IMG/VR virus record: IMGVR_UViG_3300006875_000005
Location: 1 to 44,239 of that record
Direction: 5' to 3' (one strand)
Length of the DNA: 44,239 nucleotides
DNA from: a virus
Shown: positions 5,623 to 44,239 of the stretch, piece by piece
Numbering within the stretch: the first letter of the stretch is position 1
Layout of the letters: each line of letters starts with the position of its first letter
The notes under the pieces: model-generated
Databases searched by the model: none
What the model was told of the DNA's origin: nothing
The model's input: only the letters and a program-made list of their open reading frames with translations
Made by a program: the position numbers and the translations under genes

Positions 5623-6108
5623 GTGGGCACATACTGCACGACGACGTCGCTTCAGACGGCGATGATTGGCACAGAGTTCGACACGGCAACGACCAGTCTT
5701 GCGACAGAGTGCATCCAGTGGGCCGAAGACGAAATCGATAAGTTTCTATCGCAGCGTTACGACCTGTCTTCGTCCTACTTTCAGACGTCAACCTCGACCC
5801 CTCCGGTAATACAGACAATCTGCAAATGGCTTAGCCAGGGCTATATGTATGAGCAGATGGCCAGGGGTCAGGAATCAAAGCGCGGCGAAAAGCTTATCGA
5901 GCGCGCAATCAATAACCTTAAGATGATTGCTGAGTTTAAACTCAACGTCTTTGACTCGACCGGATCCGTCGTGCCGGACTCGGTAAGCAGCACCTACCGT
6001 ATCCAGTGCAATACTTCGAACTACGCGAATACGTTTAACGAAGATGACGAGCTAAACTGGCGCGTCGATGATTCTAAGCTAGACGATATCGATGCGGAGC
6101 GCGACTGA
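5623..6108 (+). CDS. Head-tail connector, Mu gp36-like (DUF1320)
   Basis: A 161-residue protein starting at GTG 5623 (GAGG upstream). Sequence features such as YCTTTSLQTAMIG, ATECIQWAEDEIDKFLSQRY and IQTICKWLSQGYMYE match the gp36/DUF1320 adaptor family that extends the portal. The stop TGA overlaps the next ATG (ATGA is replaced by TGATG). Order (capsid, adaptor, gpG, terminator) supports the call. Confidence 0.8.
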   Translation: MGTYCTTTSLQTAMIGTEFDTATTSLATECIQWAEDEIDKFLSQRYDLSSSYFQTSTSTPPVIQTICKWLSQGYMYEQMARGQESKRGEKLIERAINNLKMIAEFKLNVFDSTGSVVPDSVSSTYRIQCNTSNYANTFNEDDELNWRVDDSKLDDIDAERD

Positions 6109-6581
6109 TGGCGCAGGAAGTTTACTTCGACGATAAAGAGATTAGAAGGTTCATGGAGCGTGTCGCGAAGATGGTTAAAGAACCAGAACGGCAAGCCGGA
6201 ATCGTCGGCGCCATTTCTGCCGTTGTCTTTAAAGATGTTATCGAACACTTCGAGCAAGAGCGCGGCCCGTCGGGTCCATGGGAACCGTGGTCAGAGATCT
6301 ATCGCGAACATATGAAAGAGATTGGACGCAGCGGGAATAAGATTCTCCAGTTCAGCGGACGTCTTCGGCAGAGCTTTCAGCCGACCAAGTATAAAGTCGA
6401 GCCTCACGCGATTACTTGGTTTAATAACGCGAAGACAAAAGGCGGCTACCCATACGCCTGGGGGCACGACGAGGGCGATGGAAATTTACCCGAGCGTTCG
6501 TTTATGTGGCTTTCATCGAAGGCGCACGAGACTGTGGCCGAGACCATCCTTGCGAAGATTCTAGAGGACAAGAATGGCTGA
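6108..6581 (+). CDS. Virion morphogenesis protein, Mu gpG-like tail completion/stopper
   Basis: A 157-residue protein with the features of the phage virion morphogenesis family (PF05069): an N-terminal helix pair, then GPWEPWSEIYREHM, then ILQFSGRLRQSF, then PYAWGHDEGDG and the terminal ERSFMWLS segment. The family acts at the head-tail junction. It overlaps the next gene by eight bases, consistent with coupled translation. Confidence 0.85.
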   Translation: MAQEVYFDDKEIRRFMERVAKMVKEPERQAGIVGAISAVVFKDVIEHFEQERGPSGPWEPWSEIYREHMKEIGRSGNKILQFSGRLRQSFQPTKYKVEPHAITWFNNAKTKGGYPYAWGHDEGDGNLPERSFMWLSSKAHETVAETILAKILEDKNG

Positions 6582-7077
6582 GCGGGTCGACCTGAACGGT
6601 ATTCTAGAGAATATTCAGACGACGCTTCAGGCCGCTAACACGACGACCGCGTCGCCGATCGATCTCTCTAGCGATCTAAGTCGGCGGGTCCGGAAGATCT
6701 TAAAGGTTCATCCGTTGATGATCCCGGTTCAGGCGTCTTTCTATCCATTCGTAACGTGCTATGTGAGCAAGAAAAGCCCGCAGAACGCGAGCATCGCGAA
6801 GGACCAACTAAACGCGAAGCGAAGGGCCGAGGTCTTCGTCGACGTCGTCGCCGCGGTCTGGAACGACACGCTTTCGGTCGTCGACGAAGATCCGGCGGAT
6901 AAGGATATCAATTATTTAATGGAGAACGTCGAGCTTGTCCTTCGCAGTATTCCGAATGTTTCGGGATCCGTACTTTGGCAGGTCGCAAGCGACACACTTT
7001 ATTACGATCAACCATTGAAGGAAAACGTCCATCTGCGCGCCGGGATTATGACAATCCGAGGAACAGTCTTCTACTGA
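6574..7077 (+). CDS. Tail terminator-like protein
   Basis: A 167-residue protein of the size and position of the tail terminator (lambda gpU-like), which caps the tail tube and fixes its length. It shows an N-terminal helix (VDLNGILENIQTTLQAAN), a central strand (FYPFVTCYVSKKS), another helix around the ENVELVLRSIPNV segment, and a final strand. No catalytic motif is seen. Function is from gene order and fold-like pattern only. Confidence 0.65.
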   Translation: MAERVDLNGILENIQTTLQAANTTTASPIDLSSDLSRRVRKILKVHPLMIPVQASFYPFVTCYVSKKSPQNASIAKDQLNAKRRAEVFVDVVAAVWNDTLSVVDEDPADKDINYLMENVELVLRSIPNVSGSVLWQVASDTLYYDQPLKENVHLRAGIMTIRGTVFY

Positions 7078-7089
7078 GGTTTTACTTTT

Positions 7090-8079
7090 ATGCCATCTGA
7101 GTCACAGATTCTTGCTCAATCGAAAGCGGCCTATAACCAATGGGCGAAGCAGTGGCGCGCGCACGCGACACTTCACTCTAAGTTTAAAATGAAGGACCTT
7201 TCTGATTTCGAAAACATCGGCGTCGGCCGCGCGATACTCTGTATCGCAAACGGCTATTCGTTCGAAGAGAACCTCGAGACGATTAAGGAACTTCAGGAGA
7301 ACGTCGACATCCTGGTCTGTGACAAAACACTCGGTCACTGCCTTAATCACGGCATTAAACCGACCTACGTCCTCGTGTGCGACGCAAACGTCTCTTTCGA
7401 GAAGTATCTCGAGCCGTGGAAAGACCAGGTTAAGGATATCGTTTTGTTTTCGAACGTCTGCGCCAATCCGCGGTGGACGCATGAGGCGAAATGGAAAGAT
7501 ATGTACTTCTTCGTAAACAAAGACATCATTAAGTCGGAGCAGGAGTTTTCTCGTCTCTCGGGCTGTCAGAACCAGATTCCAGCCGCGACGAACGTATCTA
7601 ACGCTATGGTTGTGTTCCTTACTCAGTCGGACGACCGCGGCCGTGCGAACTTCTTCGGTTACGATAAGATTCTACTTATCGGATACGACTTCTCCTGGAG
7701 ACCCGACGGGAAATATTACGCTTTCGATAGCGATGGCGGCGGGAAGAAAAACTACATGCGCCATATTTACTTGAACAATTTAAATAATAATTATTCGTAC
7801 ACGTCGGGGAACCTCGCGTTCTCCGCCGAGTGGTTGGAAAAATATATCAAGACGTTCAATTTGCCGGTGATACAATGCTCGAAAGAAACGATCATGCCCG
7901 GCAGATTCATGTCGAGTCTTGAGTCACAAATGAAGTATTCATACAAGAGAGAAGATGCCGGGATCGTGCGAGAGAAGGTAAGGAAGCGCAGAGAGCTTCT
8001 TCAGGCTCTCGGCGATATCGATGGGTCGCTTCGTATGATTGGACGTGAACATTACTATGCGTTTGCGTCTTCTATCTAG
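7090..8079 (+). CDS. DUF115 / Maf-type glycosyltransferase-like protein inside the tail operon
   Basis: A 329-residue protein that does not look structural. Residues about 45-110 resemble the DUF115 (MptE/Maf) core: RAILCIANGYSFEENL, then ILVCDKTLGHCLNHGIKPTY, then VLVCDAN. A second signature, DKILLIGYDFSW, is at about residues 196-207. Bacterial Maf proteins of this family transfer CMP-activated nonulosonic acids to Ser/Thr of flagellin. Here the gene lies between tail terminator and tail tube with normal spacing and SD. A virion protein as acceptor is an inference. The sugar cassette at 15.9-20.6 kb could supply the donor. A pterin-pyrophosphokinase-like role is the alternative. Confidence 0.7.
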   Translation: MPSESQILAQSKAAYNQWAKQWRAHATLHSKFKMKDLSDFENIGVGRAILCIANGYSFEENLETIKELQENVDILVCDKTLGHCLNHGIKPTYVLVCDANVSFEKYLEPWKDQVKDIVLFSNVCANPRWTHEAKWKDMYFFVNKDIIKSEQEFSRLSGCQNQIPAATNVSNAMVVFLTQSDDRGRANFFGYDKILLIGYDFSWRPDGKYYAFDSDGGGKKNYMRHIYLNNLNNNYSYTSGNLAFSAEWLEKYIKTFNLPVIQCSKETIMPGRFMSSLESQMKYSYKREDAGIVREKVRKRRELLQALGDIDGSLRMIGREHYYAFASSI

Positions 8080-8091
8080 GGAGGGAAGTAA

Positions 8092-9141
8092 ATGGCAGTA
8101 GGTCAGAACGCACTTGTTGGTTTCCCTTCTTATCTCGCGGTCGCACGCGAAACGACCTACGGCACTTACGTCACCGCTACGGCCGGAATCGAGTTTATCT
8201 CGTCTAGCCTTCGGACGATGAAGGAAGCAAAGGTCATTGAGGAAATCACCACGCATCGCGTGTACGCGGATACGATCAGTCTCGGTAAGAAGATCGAAGG
8301 AGATATCGAGATTCATTACGACCCGCGCTCGACTGCGGCCGCTTATTTGCTTCAGAATGCGATGGGCGGTGCGGCCATTACGTCTGCGACCGCCACGGGA
8401 GAGACGGCCGGAGGGAGTGCGTTTACGCATACGTTCACTCTCGGAAACTTCGACGCTACACACGGGTCGCTTTCTATCAATACTCGCAAGGGCGACTCGG
8501 CTTCGGCAAAGATTTTCGAGTTTACCGGACTTCGCGTAAACGAATTCACTCTAAATTCGGAGATCGACGAGGCGGTAAAGGCGACGTTCTCTTTGATCGG
8601 AAAAGACTCGACGATTTCGACAAACGACGTTTCGACGGCTATCGGAAACCTAAATCAGTGGCCACTTAGCTTCGTTAGCGGACGCGTGAGCGTCGAGAGT
8701 TCATTCGGTTCTTTGACCTCGACGTCGTTCTGGCATGTTCAAACGGTTGAGTTGACGATTGCAAACAATCTCAAGGCAGATGCAGATTCTCGACGCATAG
8801 GCTCGGACCTTCTTCAGGTATTGCCGCCCGGAGTGGCCGCGATCACGCTGAATATGACGATGCGGTTCGATACGACGACCGCCTACACGGCGATGATCAA
8901 CAATTCTCAGCTCGCTTGTGAGCTTGAGTTTTTGGGCGACACGCTGTCTGGTTCCGCGATCCGTCGCGGGATTAAAATTCAGATGCCGAAGATCTTCATC
9001 ACTGAGGCGTCGGATCCTGAGATTGGCGGGCCGGACGAGATTCTAAAAACCGAAGTTTCCGCACTCGTGCTTCGCGACTCATCAACCTCGACCGGATATG
9101 CGATTCGGGCGCTCGTGACAAACGATACGTCGAGTTATTGA
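8092..9141 (+). CDS. Major tail tube protein
   Basis: A 349-residue, beta-rich, threonine/serine-rich protein, with VGFPSYLAVARETTYGTYVT near the start, as in many siphophage tube proteins. It sits directly upstream of the G/GT tail chaperone genes, where the tube gene normally lies. It is longer than lambda gpV, so it probably carries an extra beta domain. SD GGAGG stands before ATG 8092. Its many Ser/Thr residues would be possible targets of the upstream Maf-like protein (speculative). Confidence 0.8.
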   Translation: MAVGQNALVGFPSYLAVARETTYGTYVTATAGIEFISSSLRTMKEAKVIEEITTHRVYADTISLGKKIEGDIEIHYDPRSTAAAYLLQNAMGGAAITSATATGETAGGSAFTHTFTLGNFDATHGSLSINTRKGDSASAKIFEFTGLRVNEFTLNSEIDEAVKATFSLIGKDSTISTNDVSTAIGNLNQWPLSFVSGRVSVESSFGSLTSTSFWHVQTVELTIANNLKADADSRRIGSDLLQVLPPGVAAITLNMTMRFDTTTAYTAMINNSQLACELEFLGDTLSGSAIRRGIKIQMPKIFITEASDPEIGGPDEILKTEVSALVLRDSSTSTGYAIRALVTNDTSSY

Positions 9142-15888: not shown

Positions 15889-16833
15889 ATGTCGCTCGCA
15901 TATTCGATCTATCGAGCCAAATACCGATTCGGTCGGTACTTGCCGCTTAGAAAGCCCGTAGATGTCTCCCTTGAGCTCGCCGCTGCCTGTAATCAGCGCT
16001 GCGGTTATTGCTATTGGGCAGAGCCGGACAAGGTCCCGTTTAAACGCGGCATGATGGCGCGTGACACAGCTTTCGAGATCATCAAGCAATGTTCTGATCT
16101 CGGCGTGCCTAGTCTAAAGTTTAACTGGAGGGGCGAGTCGACTCTTAACCCGCACTTTCTTGAGATCACCGCTTATGCGAAAAGCCTGGCGAGCGGTTCG
16201 ACATTTATTGATCGCCTGACGAACTCCAATTTTAAGTTTCCGAGTCATCGTGAGGATATTTTTGAAGGGCTCTGCAACCAAACGAAGGTGAAGGTTTCTT
16301 TCGATTCGTTTATCAAAGATGTTTTCGAAACACAGCGGGCGGGCGCGCGGTACCATCAAGCGCTTACGAATATTGATCTTTTTTATCATCACCCGAGGCG
16401 CAAAGATACCGAGCTCGTGATACAGGCGGTCCGAACCGCGCGGAACCTTGAAGAGGACATTGAGGGCGAGGTAAAGAAGCGCTGGCCATCGGCGACGGTC
16501 AGTATTCGCAATGTGGTCGAGGGAAGGCGTAGCGAGTCGATCTCGGATATCGCGGTTCTCGAGCGCCCGAAAGAGCGGCAATCCTGTCTGCAGGCGCACG
16601 TGCGACTGATTTTCTCTCATGATGGCAACGCATCTCCTTGCTGTCCTTCGATCTCCGATCAGCTTTATCTGGGAAACATCAAGGACAGTTCGGTAAAAGA
16701 GATTTTTAACTCGGCAATGGCCCGAGAGCTTCGGAAAGATCTTAAGTCGGGCGTGGCGTTTAAACTAGACCCGTGCAAAACCTGCTCGTCGTTCGAATCA
16801 TACAAGGGCTTTCGCCCGTCGTGGAACTCATGA
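15889..16833 (+). CDS. Radical SAM/SPASM-like protein
   Basis: A 314-residue protein with the radical SAM CxxxCxxC motif at C34/C38/C41 (ACNQRCGYCYW). A C-terminal cysteine group (ASPCCPS, then DPCKTC) resembles a SPASM domain that binds extra Fe-S clusters. Such enzymes use S-adenosylmethionine to start radical chemistry on sugars, peptides or cofactors; the substrate here is not evident. First gene of a five-gene cassette with overlapping ends (ATGA with the next gene). The ATG lacks a good SD (only CCGGA). No host metabolic neighbour is present. Confidence 0.85.
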   Translation: MSLAYSIYRAKYRFGRYLPLRKPVDVSLELAAACNQRCGYCYWAEPDKVPFKRGMMARDTAFEIIKQCSDLGVPSLKFNWRGESTLNPHFLEITAYAKSLASGSTFIDRLTNSNFKFPSHREDIFEGLCNQTKVKVSFDSFIKDVFETQRAGARYHQALTNIDLFYHHPRRKDTELVIQAVRTARNLEEDIEGEVKKRWPSATVSIRNVVEGRRSESISDIAVLERPKERQSCLQAHVRLIFSHDGNASPCCPSISDQLYLGNIKDSSVKEIFNSAMARELRKDLKSGVAFKLDPCKTCSSFESYKGFRPSWNS

Positions 16834-18122
16834 AAACAGGAATCGTTGTCTGCACTCGTCTTAACTCTTCTCGTGTGCCCGGAAAGGCTGTACGCGAGAT
16901 AAATGGCGTTCCACTTATCCGTCATCTGGTCCGGCGCTTAAAGCGCACGGGCCTTCCGGTCGTTCTTGCGTTGCCTCAAGAAGATCTAAAACCAATCACC
17001 GATGCTCTGGGAGAGGATGCTCCGCCACTCGGCTTTACGATAGGCCATCCCAACGATCCGCTTGCGAGGACGTACCAGGCCGCCAAGGACCATGGGCTCG
17101 ATCGCGTTGTGCGTGTCAGTCACGACAAGATTTTCGTCAGCGACCTGCTGTCTGAGATCGAAGACCTACCAATCGATGCCGACTATTGCTTCAGTCCCGG
17201 CTTTGCGGCCGGAACCGGATTTGAAGTTATATCTTTCCGCGCACTAAGGGCAGCGGCGGAAAAGTACAAGAACGTAGAGTTCATCGGTTACGCCGTAAAA
17301 TCAGTCACGGACAAGATCTTTCAAATTCAGGCCAGAAGCGAATCTCAAGACGACCGGCTGCTAATCGATTTTCCTGAAGATCTTAGTCTAATGGAATTGA
17401 TACTGGCGTCTTGCGGAAACGACTGCACAACTAAGGACGCGCTGGAGTTCTTAAAAGCAAATCCGTGGGCCCGGAAGATCAATCGGCTTCCAAGGCTGAC
17501 GCTCTATACGTGCGTCTATAACGGTGAGAAGTTTATCGAGCGCGCCATGGGTTCCGTTTCGTCGCAGAATGGATTTCGCGACTTCGAGTATATCATTGTT
17601 GATGATCACTCGACCGATCGAACGACGAAGCTAATAGCAAAGTTTTGCACGCTATACCCGAATGCAAGATGGATTCGGAATCGAGAGAACCTTGGCCTTG
17701 CGAGCTCGTCGAATATCGCTCTGAAGAATGCAAGATCCGAGTTCATCATGCGTCTCGACGCGGACGATTATTTTTCCTCGTTTTTCTCCGCTCAAGAGAT
17801 GTTGAACTGCATTCAATCCCAAGGGCTTGATGCCGTTTACCCAGACTGTTACTTCGGCAGCAAAACAAAGGTTCAACCGGGTTCGGAAAGCCATCATGTT
17901 GGTGGGGCGATCTTCCGCACACGCGCCGTGAACCACGTTAAATTCACCGAAAGACTTCGCGGTTACGAGGGGCTAGATTTCTTCGTGCGAGCGAAAGATC
18001 AGATCAAAATCGGGTACTTTTCTTCGCCAACTTTCTTCTATACACAGCGGCCGGACTCGTTAAGTAAAACGAACCTCGAAGAGCGGGCAAAGATCAAAGA
18101 GGAAATAGATGCGAAAGCATAA
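16830..18122 (+). CDS. CMP-sugar synthetase-like domain fused to a GT2 glycosyltransferase
   Basis: A 430-residue fusion. Residues 1 to about 205 resemble the SpsF/CMP-NeuNAc/KdsB cytidylyltransferases: VVCTRLNSSRVPGKA at 6-20 is the nucleotide-binding loop and VSHDKIF at 96-102 a likely metal/sugar site. Residues about 222-430 are a GT-A family 2 transferase: YTCVYNGEKFIERA, VDDHSTD (257-263), and the metal-binding DAD at 310-312. One protein could therefore activate a sugar with CTP and transfer it or a second sugar. I place the start at ATG 16830, overlapping the previous stop by four bases. Upstream in-frame codons are not used. Confidence 0.85.
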   Translation: MKTGIVVCTRLNSSRVPGKAVREINGVPLIRHLVRRLKRTGLPVVLALPQEDLKPITDALGEDAPPLGFTIGHPNDPLARTYQAAKDHGLDRVVRVSHDKIFVSDLLSEIEDLPIDADYCFSPGFAAGTGFEVISFRALRAAAEKYKNVEFIGYAVKSVTDKIFQIQARSESQDDRLLIDFPEDLSLMELILASCGNDCTTKDALEFLKANPWARKINRLPRLTLYTCVYNGEKFIERAMGSVSSQNGFRDFEYIIVDDHSTDRTTKLIAKFCTLYPNARWIRNRENLGLASSSNIALKNARSEFIMRLDADDYFSSFFSAQEMLNCIQSQGLDAVYPDCYFGSKTKVQPGSESHHVGGAIFRTRAVNHVKFTERLRGYEGLDFFVRAKDQIKIGYFSSPTFFYTQRPDSLSKTNLEERAKIKEEIDAKA

Positions 18123-18483
18123 CTCGATCGACCTTCTCGCGCTGTATGCAAAGGGTAGCGCAAACGGATGGAATAAGTTTCTTACTGAGTGTCTCGAGTC
18201 GCACAACGTAGCAAGGTTAAGCCGGATGATGTATGCGCTTCAGGCCGGCATGGATGACCTTTCAAAGAAGAAGCTTAACGACGAGAAGATTATTCAGTTC
18301 TACATTCGACTTCTTAAGTCGATCGAGAACACGCTTAAAGCAATCTTGCGGGCGAAGTACCCTACGCCCCTCGACAATTCACTAAAATCAAAAGACTCCG
18401 AGTATGCGAGGGCAAAGTGGAAAGAGATTAAGAAGAAACGCGATCAAGAGTTCGAAAAGTTCTTAAGAAAGTCGAGTTACTAA
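18109..18483 (+). CDS. Small helical protein of the glycan cassette
   Basis: A 124-residue, lysine-rich, all-helical protein, overlapping the preceding gene by 14 bases and followed without a gap by the next gene. It has no signal peptide and no membrane segment. It ends in a basic helix (KWKEIKKKRDQEFEKFLRKS). I do not recognise a family; coupling to its neighbours implies a role with the transferase or synthase. Confidence 0.65.
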   Translation: MRKHNSIDLLALYAKGSANGWNKFLTECLESHNVARLSRMMYALQAGMDDLSKKKLNDEKIIQFYIRLLKSIENTLKAILRAKYPTPLDNSLKSKDSEYARAKWKEIKKKRDQEFEKFLRKSSY

Positions 18484-19323
18484 ATGAAAAACGAATTCGC
18501 CCAGCGTCGAACGTGGGGCCCGGCCCCGAAGTATCCGAGCGTAATCGATTACTGTCCGACACAAGATGAAGATGAGTTTATCGTTGTTGCCGGGCCATGT
18601 TCTGTCGAGAGCGATCGTCAGATTAAAGAGATCGCGTCTCTCGTCGCGTCTGCGGGCGCCACACATCTGAGAGGCGGCGTTTTCCGCGCGGGAACATATC
18701 CAGGGGCAAACTTTGGTTGGGTCGATCGCGATCTGATTAAGTCGTATAAACGAGCAGCTTCGGCGAATGGACTTCGAAACATCATTGAGATCTTAGAGTA
18801 TGATCGGCCGGAAATGCTTGAGTTCATTCTCGAGAACGCGGACTGCGTTCAGGTTGGCGCGCGGCAGATGCAAAACTATACGCTGCTCCGTCGCTTAGGG
18901 AAAACAGGAAAGACCGTGTTTCTGAAACGAAATCCTGGCGCGACCCTAGACGAGTGGCTCGGCGCTGCTGAATACATTATCGCGTCGGGCGGGAAGCCGA
19001 TTCTTATCGAGCGCGGATCGGCAACACACGCAAATCATGTGCGCTGGGATTTATCAATCAGCATGATTCCTGCTGTTCAGGCGATCACAAAGATTCCGAT
19101 TATTGTCGATGCGTCACACGGGACGGGTCGCCGAGACCTCGTAAGTCCCATGACACTTGCCGGGATTGCTGCTGGCGCAAACGGAATGCTTGTTGAAGTT
19201 CACTACGACCCGAAGAACAGTCTATCAGACGCGGATCAGGCTATCGAGCCGACTGAATTTTTCGAACTCATGAGAAAGACAAAGCTACTGAGACACATTT
19301 TAAAGAAGGAATCTGCGGCATGA
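18484..19323 (+). CDS. DAHP/Kdo8P synthase-family enzyme with altered acceptor loop
   Basis: A 279-residue protein of the class I DAHP synthase family, which joins PEP to an aldose phosphate to make a 3-deoxy-ulosonic acid. Conserved metal and PEP residues are visible: GPCSVES at 37-43 (C39), VGARQMQN at 124-131, FLKR 146-149, E176, VDASHGTGRRD 208-218 (H212) and VEVHYDP (E238). The loop that in aromatic-pathway enzymes reads KPRT is here FRAGTYPGANFGW (67-79), and the usual RTFE region is THANHVRW. These are acceptor-binding positions, so the aldose is probably not erythrose 4-phosphate. With the CMP-synthetase-like partner, a CMP-ulosonate pathway is plausible. Confidence 0.8.
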   Translation: MKNEFAQRRTWGPAPKYPSVIDYCPTQDEDEFIVVAGPCSVESDRQIKEIASLVASAGATHLRGGVFRAGTYPGANFGWVDRDLIKSYKRAASANGLRNIIEILEYDRPEMLEFILENADCVQVGARQMQNYTLLRRLGKTGKTVFLKRNPGATLDEWLGAAEYIIASGGKPILIERGSATHANHVRWDLSISMIPAVQAITKIPIIVDASHGTGRRDLVSPMTLAGIAAGANGMLVEVHYDPKNSLSDADQAIEPTEFFELMRKTKLLRHILKKESAA

Positions 19324-20615
19324 GATGCGTGATCTGTGACTCAAACGACTGGGAAAACGTCGACCGCTTCCGGATTAAAGCCGAAGGCATGTGCATGTGC
19401 AAGAAGTGCGGCTTTATCTCATACCCTTCGAAGTGGAAATCTGAAGATGAAATGAAGCAGTATTATCGAAAGGATTATCGAAATCCGCCGAAGGTCTCGA
19501 ACTTTTTCACCGGCCAGCGCAAACTTCACTACCACAATGCGTTTCTTCGCCCGCTGTTTGACGAATGGGCAGAGGCGGGTAAGTCTCGGCCCGTTGTCTG
19601 CGAGATTGGTGCTGCCTATGGGATGTTCTTGAATTACCTTAAAGAAGTCGTACCTGGCGCCGAGGTCTACGGAACTGAACTCACGCTTTCCTATCGACGA
19701 AACGCATTCCATGAATTTGGCCTGAACCTCACCGAGGAATTCGATCATTCGCGCGATTACGATTTGATTTGCTCTTATAAGGTCGCGGAGCATCAATTCG
19801 ATATTGATCGCTATCTTATGCTCTATCGGAGCAAGCTTAAGCCGGGCGGATATCTCTACATCAGTGTCCCAACCTGGTTAAACCGGATGACAAATTTTGG
19901 GGCCTCGGGCTTCGACCTCGAATACTATTACCATCCGAATCACATCAACGTTTGGACGCGTACTCTATTTGAGACACTTTTGAATAAATGCGGTTTCAAG
20001 ATCGTGCGCTACAATAACTCGATGTATGACGACACGTATCTCTGCGTAGCAGACGAGCGGGTTGCTAACGATCCTCCGGCCTACGAAAGTCCCGATGAGA
20101 TTCTCGGAAAACTTGAGCGTATACACAGAGCGGGGATCGCCTATCTCGAGGGCCGGTTCGACGATGCGATTGCGACGTGGCCGGATTTCCCCGAGGCTCA
20201 TGTCTCGCGCTACGAAGGGAAGAGGGCGGAGTTTCACAAGGGTTCTTTTAAATCCGTCTTAGAGAACGTCATCGACGTTGCGGTCAAGTCTTGCCCTGAT
20301 TCACCAGAGGCCTGGGGGCTCGCGGGCGACCTCCACATGCGCTACGACAAGTTTCACGATGCAATTAAATGTTTTGAAAAGGTCCTAGAGCTTCGTCCGG
20401 GCCAGTCATCAGCACTTCGTGGGATCGCGCACTCTCTTAGATCACTTGGGAACATCGCCGCGCGCAGCGGTCAATTCTCCGAGGCGACGGGATACTATAC
20501 CGAAGCACGAAATGTGACGCGCTACCTGCGACAAGTATCAGAACAAGATCAGCACGATGCGCTGACGTGGGTCTACGACGATAACTCTCGAATCCCGATG
20601 CCGAGCGAGGCTTGA
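19320..20615 (+). CDS. SAM methyltransferase with zinc-binding N-terminus and TPR tail
   Basis: A 431-residue protein. The first 30 residues hold two CxxC pairs (C3/C6; C27/C30), as in sugar C-methyltransferase-like proteins that bind zinc. The class I methyltransferase core follows (VCEIGAAYGMFLNY at 93-106, then a later GGYLYISVPTW). Residues about 285-400 carry tetratricopeptide-like helices (AWGLAGDLHMRYDKFHDAIK, then CFEKVLELRPG). Overlaps the synthase stop by four bases and ends the cassette. Likely methylates the sugar or glycan; the substrate is not visible. Confidence 0.8.
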   Translation: MRCVICDSNDWENVDRFRIKAEGMCMCKKCGFISYPSKWKSEDEMKQYYRKDYRNPPKVSNFFTGQRKLHYHNAFLRPLFDEWAEAGKSRPVVCEIGAAYGMFLNYLKEVVPGAEVYGTELTLSYRRNAFHEFGLNLTEEFDHSRDYDLICSYKVAEHQFDIDRYLMLYRSKLKPGGYLYISVPTWLNRMTNFGASGFDLEYYYHPNHINVWTRTLFETLLNKCGFKIVRYNNSMYDDTYLCVADERVANDPPAYESPDEILGKLERIHRAGIAYLEGRFDDAIATWPDFPEAHVSRYEGKRAEFHKGSFKSVLENVIDVAVKSCPDSPEAWGLAGDLHMRYDKFHDAIKCFEKVLELRPGQSSALRGIAHSLRSLGNIAARSGQFSEATGYYTEARNVTRYLRQVSEQDQHDALTWVYDDNSRIPMPSEA

Positions 20616-27897: not shown

Positions 27898-27986
27898 CCG
27901 GCGCGGTAGTGGTAATCAGCTTCATGATTCTAACGGGGTACGTGATTAAACAGCTTTTGGAATACAAAAAGGGGGACCGCAAATGA
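27894..27986 (+). CDS. Tiny membrane protein
   Basis: A 30-residue single-span protein (TGAVVVISFMILTGYVIKQL, then a basic tail). ATGA overlaps at both ends and GGAGGAG just upstream support translation. It may assist the SPFH lipoprotein that follows. Confidence 0.55.
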   Translation: MTGAVVVISFMILTGYVIKQLLEYKKGDRK

Positions 27987-28762
27987 GAATGCTTCTGCTG
28001 GGAATGCTTGCGTTGAATTTAACCGCATGTGGCTTCGAGATCGTTGACACTGGCCATCGCGGAATTAAGACCCGCTTCGGCGAGGTCGTCGGCGAGCCGC
28101 TGCCCGAAGGCATGCACTTCTACAACCCGGTAACGTCAGGCATTCGCGAATATGCCGTTCGCGAAGAGAAATGGGCCGACAAAACGGCCATTTTCACCAA
28201 GGACACTCAGCGGGTTGATATCGAGTTCGCGGTCGTATTCTATCCTGACCCGAAGCAGGTCCATAATTTGTATCGCGAAGTTGGACTGGACTATGAGCTT
28301 GCAGAGAAGATCATTCGTCCCGTCGTCCTCGGATCTATCAAGGACGCGATTGGGCAAGTCATCGCAGACGAGCTGGTCTCGAAACGCGAACTCGTGACCA
28401 AGGAAGCGCTTCGAGAAGTTCAAGAAAACCTCAAGGCACGCAGCGTGATCGTAACTGACCTTCAATTCACAAATTTAGACTTCGACGACGCATATGAGCA
28501 GGCGGTCGAGCAGAAGGTCGTTGCAATCCAAGATGCTCAGCGCGCCAAGAACGAAACGGTACGGATTGAAGAAGAAGCGAAGCAAAAAGTAAAGACCGCC
28601 GAGGCCGATGCGGAGTCGATGCGGATCAAGTCCCAGGCGCTCTCGCAGAACAAAGGGCTCGTCGAATTTGAAGCTGTACAGAAATGGGATGGCAGACTGC
28701 CGCAGTACATGTTCGGCAGTCAGACGACTCCGTTCATCGATCTCCGTTCGATGAAGCAGTGA
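27983..28762 (+). CDS. SPFH/Band-7 domain lipoprotein
   Basis: A 259-residue protein of the stomatin/prohibitin/HflK-HflC superfamily. A lipoprotein signal (LLLGMLALNLTAC, C16) is followed by the SPFH core (VDTGHRGIKTRFGEVVGEPL; YNPVTSGIREYAVR; RVDIEFAVVFYPDP). A long charged coiled coil (about 170-225, rich in EEEAKQKVKTAEADAE) follows, as in oligomer-forming members. Bacterial SPFH proteins control membrane proteases such as FtsH, which in lambda infections degrades CII. A role in the lysis-lysogeny choice, or in keeping the membrane intact, is inference. Confidence 0.85.
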   Translation: MRMLLLGMLALNLTACGFEIVDTGHRGIKTRFGEVVGEPLPEGMHFYNPVTSGIREYAVREEKWADKTAIFTKDTQRVDIEFAVVFYPDPKQVHNLYREVGLDYELAEKIIRPVVLGSIKDAIGQVIADELVSKRELVTKEALREVQENLKARSVIVTDLQFTNLDFDDAYEQAVEQKVVAIQDAQRAKNETVRIEEEAKQKVKTAEADAESMRIKSQALSQNKGLVEFEAVQKWDGRLPQYMFGSQTTPFIDLRSMKQ

Positions 28763-38109: not shown

Positions 38110-38295
38110 ATGGCGCGTGAAACCGGGATACTTACGCTAAGGGAAGCAGAGCGAAACGAAATCGAATACGCACTTGCGTTTCATAAGGGAAACGTAAGAC
38201 CAGCGGCACGCGATCTCGGAATCGCGTTTGCGACTCTCTATCGAAAGATTAAAGAGTATCAAATCGATCTAGCGAGCATACGAAAGTCGAAATGA
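38110..38295 (+). CDS. Fis-type HTH protein
   Basis: A 61-residue protein made of a Fis/NtrC-C-terminal HTH (EIEYALAFHKGNVRPAARDL, then GIAFATLYRKIKEYQIDL). As a stand-alone domain it may dimerise and control the glycan genes that follow with ATGA overlap, or late transcription more widely. Confidence 0.75.
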   Translation: MARETGILTLREAERNEIEYALAFHKGNVRPAARDLGIAFATLYRKIKEYQIDLASIRKSK

Positions 38296-39797
38296 TTCTC
38301 CCAAGTCCGCCGAATGATCACGAGAAGTATCTCTACGTTGACCAGAATAAGTGGCTTATCTACGGATGGGGCCTCGTCTCGTTCCTACTGCTCGTCGCCG
38401 GGATGGCGATTTTCGCGGTTCATCACAATTACTTCGTCGTCTACGTCGCGTTTACGATCATTACGGCGTTCTATCTTGGCGTTTCGTACTGGATTGGCGT
38501 CTTCGGGAAACCGTTTGATCTGACGAAACACGAAGACGTCCGACGAAATACGATCACAAATAATCTCTCCGTCGACGTCTACTTGCCGTCTTGTGGCGAA
38601 CCGCTCGAGGTTCTCGAGAATACCTATCGTCATGTCCGCGCCCTTCGATGGCCCGAGGGGAAACTTCACGTCTGGGTCCTAGACGATTCGCATCGCACGG
38701 AAGTCGCGATGCTTGCTGATCGTTTCGAATTTAACTACATCGCTCGTCCGAACCGCGGCGAACTAAAAAAAGCCGGAAACGTTCGCTATGCGTTCGCGCG
38801 TACGACAGGTGAACTGATCTTAATCCTCGACGCTGATTTCTGTCCTCGGCCCGACATGCTCGAGGAAATGGTCCCGTACTTTAATCGTGACGCCGGCCTT
38901 GCGATCGTACAGTCGCCGCAATACTTCGAGCTTAAAGCCGGACAGTCCTGGGTCGAGAAGGGGGCAGCCTATGTGCAAGAGCTCTTTTATCGAATGGTGC
39001 AAACTAATCGCGATACTTGGGGTGCTTCTATCTGCGTTGGGACTTGCGCACTGTACCGTCGAGCGGCGCTGGCGCCCCACGGAGGAACTTATCCCATAGC
39101 GTATAGCGAGGACCTTCACACGGGATGGCAGGCGATCGTCGACCGCTGGCGCGTAAAGTATCTTCCTCTAAATCTCGCTAAGGGCATCTGTCCCGAGACC
39201 ATGTCCGCTTACTGGGTTCAACAAACTCGGTGGTGTACGGGGTCGACGTCTCTGCTTCTCTCTAAGAAATTCTGGACGACTCCGCTTCCGTCTTTCATGA
39301 CTCGACTGTGTTACATCAGCGGCATGTTTTATTACGTCGCAACAGCACTTTCGGTGATCTTAACGCCTTTGCCGGCGCTCATCGTCGTATGGTTCCATCC
39401 TGAAAACGTCTTCTGGTACAACTACCTATTCTCGTTGCCGAGCTTTATCTTCGGCGTCCTTATCGTTGCCATGTGGGGCCGGGCACCATTTGGCGCATAC
39501 GTCCTTTCCGCCCGGCAAGTCTCATACTATGCGCACCTCTTTGCCCTTTGGGACAAGCTTAAGGGATCGATGGTCGCATGGGTTCCGACGGGCGACACGA
39601 AGACCATGAAGTCCGTTAGACGCTATTTGGACTTTAAACGTGTCATGTTTTTCTGGGTCTCGATTACGACAGCACTCGCGTTTGCAGGCGCGTTCTATCG
39701 CATGGACGAACTATCGAACTACAATTTCTATCCGCTTCTGTTCTTCAGTGGTTTTCATTACTGGGTTTCGATGCGGGCGTTCTCGGAGGAGTCTTGA
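38292..39797 (+). CDS. Membrane-embedded processive GT2 polysaccharide synthase (BcsA-like)
   Basis: A 501-residue protein with two N-terminal membrane segments (about 22-42, 47-70), a cytosolic GT2 domain, and about four more membrane segments after 334. All catalytic marks of processive synthases are present: DD at 131-132, DAD at 180-182, ED at 273-274 (YSEDLHTGW) and QQTRW at 310-314. The PilZ domain that binds cyclic-di-GMP in cellulose synthase is absent, so control should differ. Such enzymes polymerise a UDP-sugar and push the chain through the membrane. It overlaps the next gene, a UDP-sugar epimerase. Confidence 0.9.
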   Translation: MILPSPPNDHEKYLYVDQNKWLIYGWGLVSFLLLVAGMAIFAVHHNYFVVYVAFTIITAFYLGVSYWIGVFGKPFDLTKHEDVRRNTITNNLSVDVYLPSCGEPLEVLENTYRHVRALRWPEGKLHVWVLDDSHRTEVAMLADRFEFNYIARPNRGELKKAGNVRYAFARTTGELILILDADFCPRPDMLEEMVPYFNRDAGLAIVQSPQYFELKAGQSWVEKGAAYVQELFYRMVQTNRDTWGASICVGTCALYRRAALAPHGGTYPIAYSEDLHTGWQAIVDRWRVKYLPLNLAKGICPETMSAYWVQQTRWCTGSTSLLLSKKFWTTPLPSFMTRLCYISGMFYYVATALSVILTPLPALIVVWFHPENVFWYNYLFSLPSFIFGVLIVAMWGRAPFGAYVLSARQVSYYAHLFALWDKLKGSMVAWVPTGDTKTMKSVRRYLDFKRVMFFWVSITTALAFAGAFYRMDELSNYNFYPLLFFSGFHYWVSMRAFSEES

Positions 39798-40810
39798 AAG
39801 TTCTCGTTACCGGATGTGCTGGCTTTATCGGATCACACGTCACCGATGCGCTGCTCGCAGAAAACCACTCAGTTGTTGGCATCGACAACCTCTCGAACGG
39901 CTTCTATGCGAACATGTCGCAGGCGTTCAATCGGAAAGACAAGTTCACCTATTTCACTGCGGACCTTTGCGACGGCATGTCCCTGCGAAATATCTTCATG
40001 AGCCAAAAACACAAAGGTGAGCCGATCACGCATGTCTGCCACCAAGCTGCCCTTGGTTCCGTGCCGCGGTCGATGGAAATGCCGGTTGAGGTAATCGAGA
40101 ACAACGTGAAAGCCCTCAACAACGTGCTTGAAATGGCCCGAACATTCGGCGTCGAGCGCGTAGTTTATGCTTCGTCGAGTTCCGTCTATGGTGATGATCC
40201 TCTCAAGACGAAGTGCGAGCAGAGTACGGGTAAGGCACTCTCGCCGTACGCTCTCTCGAAGCAAATGAAAGAGTCTCTCGCGGACACGTACGCGCGCGTG
40301 TACGGCGTAAAATCAATCGGTCTTCGATATTTCAATGTATTCGGTCATCGACAAGCTCACTCCGGAGCGTATGCCCCAGTCGTCGCTCGATGGGCCAATC
40401 TGCTGAAAGAAGGAAAGCAGATCGAGATCTTCGGAACAGGCGAAGCGTCGCGCGATTTTTGCTACGTGAAAAACGTCGTTCAGGCGAATCTTTTGGCACT
40501 CAAGGCGCCGATCGCGCCAGGCGTCTCAGCCCCTTACAACATCGCATGTGGCGAGACGACGAGCCTAAATAAGCTGCTCTTGATGATGATGAGTGTTCTT
40601 GGAATTGACGAATCGATCGTACGGGTCGTTCGAAGACAAGAGCGCCATGGTGACATCAAGTCGTCTTTGGCCGACATTTCTCGGGCGCGCGTACAGCTCG
40701 GGTATCGGCCACAGTACTCGGTTCTCGACGGTCTCTATGATCTGTTCGGGAAACCTAAAGTCGAAAGTAATGGAGTCCTTTTGCCTGTAGGCTCTCGCGC
40801 GACAGGATAG
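39794..40810 (+). CDS. UDP-sugar 4-epimerase, WbpP/TviC-like
   Basis: A 338-residue short-chain dehydrogenase-type protein: NAD site TGCAGFIG (6-13), catalytic SSSSVYG (127-133), Y152 and K156 (YALSK). The segment HQAALGSVPRS (83-93) is typical of the group that epimerises UDP-GlcNAc or UDP-GlcNAcA (WbpP, TviC) rather than plain UDP-Glc. Together with the dehydrogenase it could produce UDP-GalNAcA. Its 3' end overlaps that of the dehydrogenase by 56 bases in opposite orientation. Confidence 0.9.
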   Translation: MKVLVTGCAGFIGSHVTDALLAENHSVVGIDNLSNGFYANMSQAFNRKDKFTYFTADLCDGMSLRNIFMSQKHKGEPITHVCHQAALGSVPRSMEMPVEVIENNVKALNNVLEMARTFGVERVVYASSSSVYGDDPLKTKCEQSTGKALSPYALSKQMKESLADTYARVYGVKSIGLRYFNVFGHRQAHSGAYAPVVARWANLLKEGKQIEIFGTGEASRDFCYVKNVVQANLLALKAPIAPGVSAPYNIACGETTSLNKLLLMMMSVLGIDESIVRVVRRQERHGDIKSSLADISRARVQLGYRPQYSVLDGLYDLFGKPKVESNGVLLPVGSRATG

Positions 40811-42047
40811 ACTTCACGTCAAAGATGATTCCCTTGAGCCCGCAAAGCCAGGCCATTTGGTCATCGCTTAGCTGCCGATATTGCTCGTGAGCAACGGCGA
40901 CAATTACAATATCAGCTGGCACGAGGCGATCGAGAGGCATAAGCTCGACCGAGCTGCCGCTGACGTCCGCAATCGGATCATGGACCTGGACCTTTAACCC
41001 GAATTCCTTTAGTTCACTGATAATGTCGAAGACCTTCGAATTTCGGATGTCGGGACAGTTTTCTTTAAACGTCACCCCAAGGACGGTTGCGCGAACAGGC
41101 TTCGCTGAGTGACTTGCGGCAAAAAGCTTAAGCGCTTTCTGTGCAACAAAGCGTCCCATCCCATCGTTAATTCGACGACCAGAGAGAATGACCTCGGCGT
41201 GATGTCCAACTTCGGCCGCCTTGTGCGTTAGATAGTAAGGGTCAACGCCAATGCAATGGCCCCCAACAAGACCAGGTCTAAAAGGAAGGAAGTTCCATTT
41301 GGTTTGAGCAGCATCGAGTACCTCAGCTGTATCTATCTCGAGCCTATCGAAAATCAACGCAAGCTCGTTCATGAGAGCGATGTTTACGTCACGCTGCGTG
41401 TTCTCGATAACCTTCGCGGCCTCTGCTACGCGAATCGATGGTGCTCTATGTACGCCAGCCTCAATTACTGATCCGTAGACGTAGGCGATTTTTTCAAGCG
41501 TTTCCTCGTCCTGCGCCGAGACGACCTTCTTAATGTTCTCGAACTTGTGTGACGTGTCCGCCGGGTTAATCCTCTCGGGGCTGTATCCGACCGAGAAATC
41601 AAAGCCAGCCCGAAGACGAGATGTGTTTTCGAGTGCAGGAATGCAGACGTCTTCGGTCGCGCCAGGATAGACGGTCGACTCGTAAACGACGATCGAACCC
41701 TTCTCCAGAAACCAACCGAGTGCTTCGGACGCGTCGACAAGCATCGACAGGTCGGGCCGCTTCGAATCGTCGACCGGCGTCGGTACGGCAATAATATGAA
41801 AGTTCGCCCGCGAGAGATCGCTCGCCTCAGACGTAAGGTAAAAACTTTTACTTTGTAGCTCGGCCGCGGAAATCTCGCCCGTTCTGTCGATTCCTGCCCT
41901 TAGCTGATCGACCCGAGACGCATCAATGTCGTAGCCGATGACCTTAAACTTCTTGGACAACGCAACAGCGACCGGAAGGCCCACATAGCCAAGGCCGATC
42001 ACGCTAATCGTGGGGCTATACTCGGTCATCAGTTTTTCTGCTGCCAT
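40755..42047 (-). CDS. UDP-N-acetylhexosamine 6-dehydrogenase, TviB/WbpA-like
   Basis: A 430-residue protein of the UDP-glucose/GDP-mannose dehydrogenase family: NAD site GLGYVGLP (18-25), catalytic C265 (GGHCIGVDPYY), and features of the TviB/WbpO branch (VPTPVDDSKRPDL, YESTVYPGATEDVC, VGYSPERINPADTSHK). It would oxidise UDP-GlcNAc (or a related sugar) to the uronic acid. It lies opposite to the synthase and epimerase and starts two bases after the preceding minus-strand gene. Overlapping convergent 3' ends mean the two sides may limit each other's transcription. Confidence 0.9.
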   Translation of the reverse strand: MAAEKLMTEYSPTISVIGLGYVGLPVAVALSKKFKVIGYDIDASRVDQLRAGIDRTGEISAAELQSKSFYLTSEASDLSRANFHIIAVPTPVDDSKRPDLSMLVDASEALGWFLEKGSIVVYESTVYPGATEDVCIPALENTSRLRAGFDFSVGYSPERINPADTSHKFENIKKVVSAQDEETLEKIAYVYGSVIEAGVHRAPSIRVAEAAKVIENTQRDVNIALMNELALIFDRLEIDTAEVLDAAQTKWNFLPFRPGLVGGHCIGVDPYYLTHKAAEVGHHAEVILSGRRINDGMGRFVAQKALKLFAASHSAKPVRATVLGVTFKENCPDIRNSKVFDIISELKEFGLKVQVHDPIADVSGSSVELMPLDRLVPADIVIVAVAHEQYRQLSDDQMAWLCGLKGIIFDVKSILSRESLQAKGLHYFRL

Positions 42048-43053: not shown

Positions 43054-44239
43054 TCCGAATTGGCGGATCGCAAATCTCTACAAGATAGTCGATAAAAACG
43101 GGAAGCGGGTTACGTTTGCCGAGAACAGTATTCAGCAAAAAATTCGACTTTCAAAATCGAAGCGCAAGCGAATCTTAAAGGCGCGCCAATTCGGCGTGAG
43201 CACGGGCTGTATCATTAGCCTATTTGACGACACGATCTGGACTCCGGATGTTACAAACTGCATTATTGCTCACGAGCAGGATTCCATAAAAAAGCTCTTT
43301 AGAATTGTGAAGCGTGCTCACAAGTTTCTACCAGACGAAATTCGACCGATGGTTGACCGCGGCGGCGGCTCTAAATACGAGATGTATTTCCCCGAGATCA
43401 ATTCTCGAATTTACTGCGACCTTGAGTCGCGCGGCGATACGATTCAAAACCTTCACATTTCAGAGGCAGCGTTTGTCCAGGACCCAAGCCGGCTAAAGGC
43501 CACGATCGAGGCCGTTCCTCTTCATGGCAAGGTGACGGTCGAAACGACTCCGAACGGTATGGGAAATCATTTCTACGAAGACTGGATGGACCGCAGTTCT
43601 ACCTACGAAAACTTATTTTTCCCATGGTACATGCACCACGAGTATCAGATCCCGGACGCCGAGATAGGCGAACTAACAGAAGAGGAAGTCGAGTTTATAG
43701 AGAAGGCGGATCGACTCTACGGCGTGAAGATTACGCCGGCACAGATAGCGTTCCGTCGCTTTAAGCGCTCGGACCTAAAGTCACTCTTTATTCAGGAATA
43801 TCCAGAGGACGACCAATCGTGCTTTCTTGCGAGCGGGCGGGCCGTTTTTGACCTGACTCTGATTAAAGAACTTCTCTTAAAAGCGCCTAAGCCGATCGAA
43901 GTCGACGGGCCGATAAAGATCTTCGAGCGATATAACAAGAATCACTTCTACGTGGTCGGGGCCGATGCTGCCGAAGGCGTCGGCGGAGACTGGTCCGCGG
44001 CCTGCATGATTAATACGACCACTCGTCAGCAGGTCGCAACGATTCGAGGAAACCTAAAGCCGTCGGAGTTTGCGGACCAACTCGCGAAACTCTGCGAGAT
44101 GTATGTCTCGGGCGGAAGGATGCATCCGCTTCTCGGAGTAGAGAGAAACAATCATGGTCACGCGGTACTTCTAGAGCTCGACGAACATATCCGCTATCCG
44201 AATCTCTTTCATCGATGGTTGAATACCGCGCGAGATGAA
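43013..44239 (+). CDS. terL: Terminase large subunit, N-terminal 409 codons (continues at base 111)
   Basis: GTG 43013 opens the frame. ATPase motifs: KARQFGVST (56-64, Walker-A-like), NLHISEAA (146-153, Walker B with catalytic E151), ETTPNG (177-182, motif III). Nuclease motifs: GADAAEG with D318 and GGDWSAA at 324-330, then GVERN with E377. The gene leaves the window and is completed by 111-383, giving about 499 residues. TerL cleaves the concatemer and drives DNA through the portal. The frame is not interrupted at the join. Confidence 0.9.
   Translation, partial: MQSDRRAIFRRLRDPNWRIANLYKIVDKNGKRVTFAENSIQQKIRLSKSKRKRILKARQFGVSTGCIISLFDDTIWTPDVTNCIIAHEQDSIKKLFRIVKRAHKFLPDEIRPMVDRGGGSKYEMYFPEINSRIYCDLESRGDTIQNLHISEAAFVQDPSRLKATIEAVPLHGKVTVETTPNGMGNHFYEDWMDRSSTYENLFFPWYMHHEYQIPDAEIGELTEEEVEFIEKADRLYGVKITPAQIAFRRFKRSDLKSLFIQEYPEDDQSCFLASGRAVFDLTLIKELLLKAPKPIEVDGPIKIFERYNKNHFYVVGADAAEGVGGDWSAACMINTTTRQQVATIRGNLKPSEFADQLAKLCEMYVSGGRMHPLLGVERNNHGHAVLLELDEHIRYPNLFHRWLNTARDE
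44130..44239. repeat. Terminal direct repeat, right copy
   Basis: Exact copy of bases 1-110. Merging the copies gives a circle of about 44,129 bp and one uninterrupted large-terminase gene. A true short terminal repeat of packaged DNA is the alternative, but its position inside the terminase coding sequence argues for an assembly overlap. Confidence 0.95.

Follow-up and report, generated by a model that had tools for sequence, protein, structure and literature searches.

A Maf-like putative glycosyltransferase gene fixed beside the tail tube gene in an uncultivated siphovirus lineage

We find that an MptE-like (PF01973) gene located immediately upstream of a tail tube gene belongs to the core genes of an uncultivated siphovirus lineage. 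The gene was analyzed in IMG/VR record IMGVR_UViG_3300006875_000005, all 44,239 nucleotides of which are referred to below as the window. Its product is very probably a glycosyltransferase; fold, profile-profile match, motifs, co-occurrence and a parallel bacterial cluster all lend good support to the assignment of a Maf/sialyltransferase-type enzyme together with an ulosonate-type sugar cassette. We favor, with some reserve, a reading in which the phage makes a CMP-activated ulosonate-type acid that the Maf-like enzyme would use to O-glycosylate a virion protein, most likely the tail tube. The first and last 50 bases of the window recur at opposite ends, as fits a 110-bp direct terminal repeat (∼110 bp, positions 1-110 and 44130-44239), and the record is thus probably a complete 44.1-kb phage genome. 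TerL runs across the genome junction, with positions 90-383 encoding its C-terminal part. Elsewhere in the window, a single ORF (385-2592) combines a Mu-type portal with a Mu protein F-like domain, and a phage SPFH/Band 7 protein with a lipoprotein-like N terminus is encoded at 27983-28762.

The Maf-like gene and its surroundings in the tail operon comprise the following features.

6108-6581, plus strand: Neck1/tail completion protein (phrog_26)
6574-7077, plus strand: putative tail terminator (by position and synteny only)
7076-7079, plus strand: Shine-Dalgarno sequence GAGG of the Maf-like gene, sharing bases with the stop codon of the gene before it (seen in the sequence)
7090-8079, plus strand: Maf/MptE-like (PF01973) putative protein O-glycosyltransferase, 329 residues, a single domain with N- and C-terminal helices
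8080-8084, plus strand: Shine-Dalgarno sequence GGAGG of the tube gene, within the gap between the two genes (sequence and gap statistics)
8092-9141, plus strand: tail tube protein of the trimeric siphovirus type, the candidate acceptor (phrog_290 and predicted model)

The ORF at 7090-8079 is genuine. GAGG precedes its ATG by 10 nt, and the 12 nt that separate it from the tube ATG at 8092 contain only the GGAGG of the tube gene. The product matches PF01973 (MptE-like, which we take to be the former DUF115) with 58.3 bits against a curated cut-off of 34.6, and NCBIfam returns a weak match to PseD, a flagellin modification protein. A preliminary description of this DNA had reported a Maf-family gene with normal spacing and a Shine-Dalgarno sequence inside the tail operon; this observation is confirmed, and the interpretation built on it is partly supported, as detailed below. 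Strictly structural neighbors, also part of that description, are indeed found: the operon contains genes for a head-tail adaptor, Neck1, the presumed terminator and the tube. The terminator is assigned by position, the gene at 6574 having no family match, and the tube assignment is borne out by the predicted structure of the 8092 protein (Z-scores of 26.3 and 21.9 with the tubes of P74-26 and T5, respectively).

Pattern scans of IMG/VR for the Maf-like gene, which miss distant relatives, returned 31 and then 79 loci, and a search anchored on the tube yielded 72. The preliminary description had proposed looking for the gene in related tail operons, and among the tube-anchored loci we find it wherever the sequence extends beyond the tube on the upstream side. 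All related loci that span these genes show the order terminator-Maf-tube. No insert of more than 150 bp separates the Maf-like and tube genes in 78 distinct loci (the largest gap is 43 bp), and inserts or extensions occur at 6 of 74 terminator-Maf and 13 of 65 neck-terminator junctions. Median pairwise identity is 51% for the Maf-like protein, equal to that of the major capsid protein, 53% for the tube and 40% for the terminator. Some relatives carry HAD phosphatase genes between terminator and Maf-like gene (L021:2274-2720, PNKP-like by Pfam, and L024:2502-2927), which might encode a sugar-acid phosphatase or a DNA-end enzyme. One terminator has a long N-terminal extension that appears LamG/concanavalin-like by eye (L004:8551-9978), and another relative (G010) contains low-complexity ORFs with short HSGTHSGP- or RVLTRVLT-type repeats, apparently arising from one type of DNA repeat in different reading frames (L038:8457-10737).

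An AF2 model of the Maf-like protein, built from 28 homologues (pLDDT 93), has as its best solved match the flagellin glycosyltransferase Maf from Magnetospirillum (5MU5; Z-score 21.5, 238 residues, 2.8 Å). Lower scores are obtained with SteA (Z 10-11) and with GT29/GT42 sialyltransferases, several of them CMP-bound (Z 8-10). Profile-profile comparison (hhalign) with four bacterial Maf-type sequences aligns residues 47-266 with a probability of 96% (E = 3e-9). The family name of PF01973 and a Z-score of 15.2 with the pterin pyrophosphokinase of Methanocaldococcus jannaschii (MjHPPK) might instead suggest a 6-hydroxymethyldihydropterin pyrophosphokinase (MptE), that is, a metabolic helper gene; a pterin-type kinase fold was also the evidence that the preliminary description had named as speaking against its own reading. 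Maf is clearly the better match, and although archaeal MptE/MjHPPK share Pfam family and fold with the phage enzyme, their metal-binding stretch VSDLDGD aligns with VCDANV in the phage profile, where the DLDG motif is lost. The gene context is likewise unrelated: among the window proteins scanned, a set that leaves out some small ORFs, there is no pterin, folate or methanopterin gene, and the Maf-like gene is linked to sugar-acid genes instead. We dropped the kinase reading on fold rank, motif and context, and consider it hardly credible.

Comparison with bacterial Maf enzymes (Magnetospirillum 5MU5, Clostridium botulinum, Geobacillus) reveals a shared central PF01973 domain and fold and a glycine-rich nucleotide loop, which reads GSGPS in Maf and ANGYS in the phage. 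Both are linked to NulO/CMP-sugar genes and lie beside a gene for a tube- or filament-forming protein. The phage enzyme differs from the three-domain Maf architecture of ∼650-700 residues in being a lone domain: Pfam finds no N-terminal Maf domain (PF20157) in its 329 residues, and the genes beside it encode virion proteins, the tube and not a flagellin. PF20157 may help in flagellin recognition. A second difference concerns the donor pathway, which in the phages often has a DAHPS-like enzyme in place of NeuB. With the GT42/GT29 sialyltransferases CstII and ST8SiaIII the phage enzyme shares the fold and, as far as a weak alignment shows, a YAFD motif with what may be the counterpart of the CstII tyrosine. 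The phage motif GYDxSW..DGKYYAFD aligns with CstII GIDFYQNGSSYAFD (CstII letters identical to 1ro7), a weakly scoring alignment (probability 16%) that lies within the structural equivalence. In this weak alignment the invariant phage Tyr-210 falls on CstII Tyr-162, and CstII His-188 falls on Thr-238, so that the catalytic histidine would not be conserved; we take Tyr-162 to be the active-site tyrosine contacting the CMP phosphate and His-188 to be the catalytic base. Unlike these sialyltransferases, the phage protein has no match to Pfam CST-I (PF06002) at E ≤ 1, and its acceptor would be a protein. A record-wide search with CST-I was silent, as were its controls. The 32 invariant columns of the phage family include the likely active-site motifs DA, TNV, NFFGYDK, GxD, W203, YY and NL.

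An ulosonate-type cassette, invoked in the preliminary description, is present at ∼15.9-20.6 kb, directly behind the tail fiber genes and before the lysis genes. Late expression is therefore expected. Further sugar genes are located beside terL.

15889-16833, plus strand: radical SAM/SPASM protein with an invariant C34-C38-C41 motif, the first cassette gene
16830-18122, plus strand: fusion of an SpsF/KdsB-type cytidylyltransferase with a GT2 glycosyltransferase (the ORF opens at 16773; likely start at 16830)
18109-18483, plus strand: small cassette protein of conserved position
18484-19323, plus strand: DAHP-synthase-like PEP-condensing enzyme with an altered acceptor motif, FRAGTYPG; some relatives carry a NeuB-like gene in this slot
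19320-20615, plus strand: methyltransferase-TPR protein, the last cassette gene
38292-42047, mixed strands: accessory sugar genes beside terL, their link to the cassette uncertain (cassette homologues in relatives)
38292-39797, plus strand: GT2 glycosyltransferase, beside terL
39794-40810, plus strand: epimerase/dehydratase, beside terL
40755-42047, minus strand: UDP-sugar dehydrogenase, beside terL

Homologues of the terL-side genes sit inside the cassette in two relatives (G008 and G034). The cytidylyltransferase-GT2 fusion was found in 8/12 and 19/28 probed contigs; nearly all contigs without it end before or shortly after the fiber genes. Several of the contigs counted in this work are near-duplicates (G020/G021, G027/G029). 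Reverse searches with the fusion or the radical-SAM protein identified three further contigs, all three with the Maf-like gene. The clear exception is the divergent G033, which has the Maf-like gene and, in the ∼4 kb past its fiber gene, other genes in place of a cassette; the sequence of G037 ends ∼1 kb past its fiber gene. One possibility is therefore that an older Maf-tube pair acquired the cassette later; another is that genomes of the G033/G037 type carry it at a different site. Of the self-contained system proposed earlier, the phage's own sugar cassette is found, while G033, which carries the gene and no cassette in the sequence seen, keeps self-containment from being fully shown.

Retention of the gene in such divergent members, its strict tie to the tube gene and the lack of an evident GT42 catalytic histidine would also fit a glycosyltransferase-fold protein that has become a structural component or chaperone of tube assembly and no longer performs catalysis. 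The invariant columns, covering as they do the likely active-site motifs, and the strong co-occurrence with the sugar-acid cassette make this quite improbable.

DAHPS and NeuB both condense PEP to a 2-keto-3-deoxy acid. In 23 phages, the window included, the synthase slot holds a DAHPS-like enzyme in 12 (among them the window), a NeuB-like enzyme in nine and both in two, and none has neither. The structural-protein tree implies at least four changes of synthase type; on it, the NeuB-like G026 nests with the DAHPS-like G022 and G032 at full or near-full support, a swap between sister phages. The Maf phylogeny does not follow synthase type (five changes; 47 of 300 shuffles were as low), whereas the types group better on a tree of the joint cassette (three changes; 0 of 300 shuffles). 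In G014, which has both synthases, the NeuB-like copy (L173:3287-3973) lacks some conserved residues and motifs and looks like decay after displacement. The 18484 protein scores below the cut-offs of type I beta DAHP synthase equivalogs (246.9 versus 267.75 and 276.1 versus 335 bits). Complete phage homologues (one, L172, is truncated) keep the Cys/His/Glu/Asp metal site and the Lys-Arg PEP site, and the erythrose 4-phosphate motif KPRTSP is replaced by FRAGTYPG or close variants. Judged by these residues, the DAHPS-like family (18484-19323 and relatives) is possibly a new PEP-dependent sugar-acid synthase. The interchangeable slot, adjoining a cytidylyltransferase, points to a CMP-ulosonate product because DAHPS and NeuB share PEP condensation. 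A shikimate-pathway helper was considered and is unlikely, since NeuB-like genes replace the enzyme and its erythrose 4-phosphate motif is altered. Most DAHPS matches among phage records involve short unannotated entries and look like host DNA.

Searches of cultured phages returned no match for the Maf-like gene or the tube, and no full-length match for the radical-SAM protein or the cytidylyltransferase-GT2 fusion. No relative of the phage gene turned up in 84,980 species genomes scanned for hosts with a pattern-limited search. One Maf match, L182, proved false and was dropped. Searching 398 proteobacterial genomes with the phage profile gave matches in open frames of 442-1211 residues, the best of which (672 residues) combines PF20157 (Maf_flag10_N) with PF01973 and adjoins a flagellin gene. 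The best proteobacterial match to the radical-SAM protein (27% identity) lies inside a NeuB cluster that contains a GT2-cytidylyltransferase fusion of opposite domain order, the radical-SAM/SPASM protein, two NeuB, SpsF-like and NeuA-like cytidylyltransferases and a methyltransferase. This cluster gives an independent connection between the phage parts and nonulosonate chemistry.

Taken together, we infer the class of the sugar, its CMP activation and the O-linkage as follows. The PEP-condensing synthase, DAHPS-like or NeuB-like, would build a 2-keto-3-deoxy acid, the cytidylyltransferase domain would charge it with CMP, and the radical-SAM enzyme, the GT2 domain and the methyltransferase-TPR protein may tailor or extend the sugar. 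The minimal, single-domain Maf-like enzyme would then move the CMP-sugar acid to Ser/Thr of a virion protein during assembly. CMP-Neu5Ac and CMP-KDO both serve as donors for Maf enzymes, whose targets are Ser/Thr residues of flagellin and whose pfam01973 domain is similar to CstII (PMC11339370). A CMP donor of the ulosonate type is likely, and a virion protein as acceptor somewhat less so. Counting against this reading are the missing PF20157, the mismatch at His-188 in the weak alignment, G033, and a Maf tree that does not follow synthase type. The acceptor and the benefit, for example particle shielding or the escape from host recognition suggested in the preliminary description, are its least certain parts.

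Because the Maf-tube gene pair is invariant, the adjoining tube is the favored acceptor; taken by itself, we rate the tube at a little short of an even chance. The virion target put forward earlier, the tube especially, is thus backed by gene order only, and leaves room for a fiber or another late protein. The preliminary description had pointed to a Thr/Ser-rich tube, which is accurate (Ser + Thr 22.6%; family median 21%) and not specific: decoration and adaptor proteins are as rich, and fibers equal or exceed the tube. We therefore dropped Ser/Thr richness as proof of the acceptor. That composition, and a cassette placed directly behind the fiber genes, would suit a transferase that modifies fibers or other receptor-binding proteins and so tunes adsorption; with the transferase gene itself kept next to the tube gene and several kb away from the fibers, we regard this as rather unlikely, yet the most serious alternative.

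Some phages are known to encode enzymes that modify nonulosonates of the host surface (PMC12053666), and the window contains an integrase-like gene, so the phage may be temperate. The Maf-like enzyme could then act on a host target such as flagellin, LPS or another envelope glycan, for phage exclusion or surface change. Conversion genes are usually accessory. The Maf-like gene, however, lies in a virion operon, is always joined to the tube gene and away from the integrase, and is as conserved as core virion proteins, and its cassette is expected to be expressed late, so that we consider a host target improbable and retain the virion protein as the preferred one.

Our literature search, which covered few subscription journals, found no report linking MptE-like or Maf proteins with phage virions. 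Mycobacteriophage transferases glycosylate capsid and tail tube (Freeman et al. 2023, cited in PMC11600133 and PMC12619734). As far as the accessible text of these two articles goes, that system resembles the one proposed here in its phage-encoded transferases acting on capsid and tube and a nearby methyltransferase, and differs in its three tandem glycosyltransferases, no Maf-type enzyme or ulosonate cassette being reported there. The sps legionaminic acid pathway of Bacillus subtilis (SpsE/SpsF; PMC7439481) likewise pairs a NeuB-type synthase with an SpsF-type cytidylyltransferase to coat a particle surface, which there is the bacterial spore crust, and its transferases and remaining genes are different.

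Extending these findings to the whole lineage, we propose, and only tentatively, that a minimal Maf enzyme O-glycosylates the tube, using an ulosonate that the phage makes with an undescribed, DAHPS-derived and NeuB-interchangeable synthase. Maf enzymes are known as flagellin transferases; if the proposal is true, they would not be flagellum-specific, and the sugar could represent a new class of activated sugar acid. That DAHPS-like and NeuB enzymes naturally replace each other at a single operon position points to an ulosonate synthase not yet described, and the small Maf-like transferase may serve glyco-engineering. Sialic acid-like sugars would join the short list of virion glycans, and acidic glycans of phage origin could influence the charge of the particle, its adsorption and its recognition. 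The fixed position of a core phage Maf gene beside the tube gene suggests that there is a general route for glycosylating helical protein tubes.
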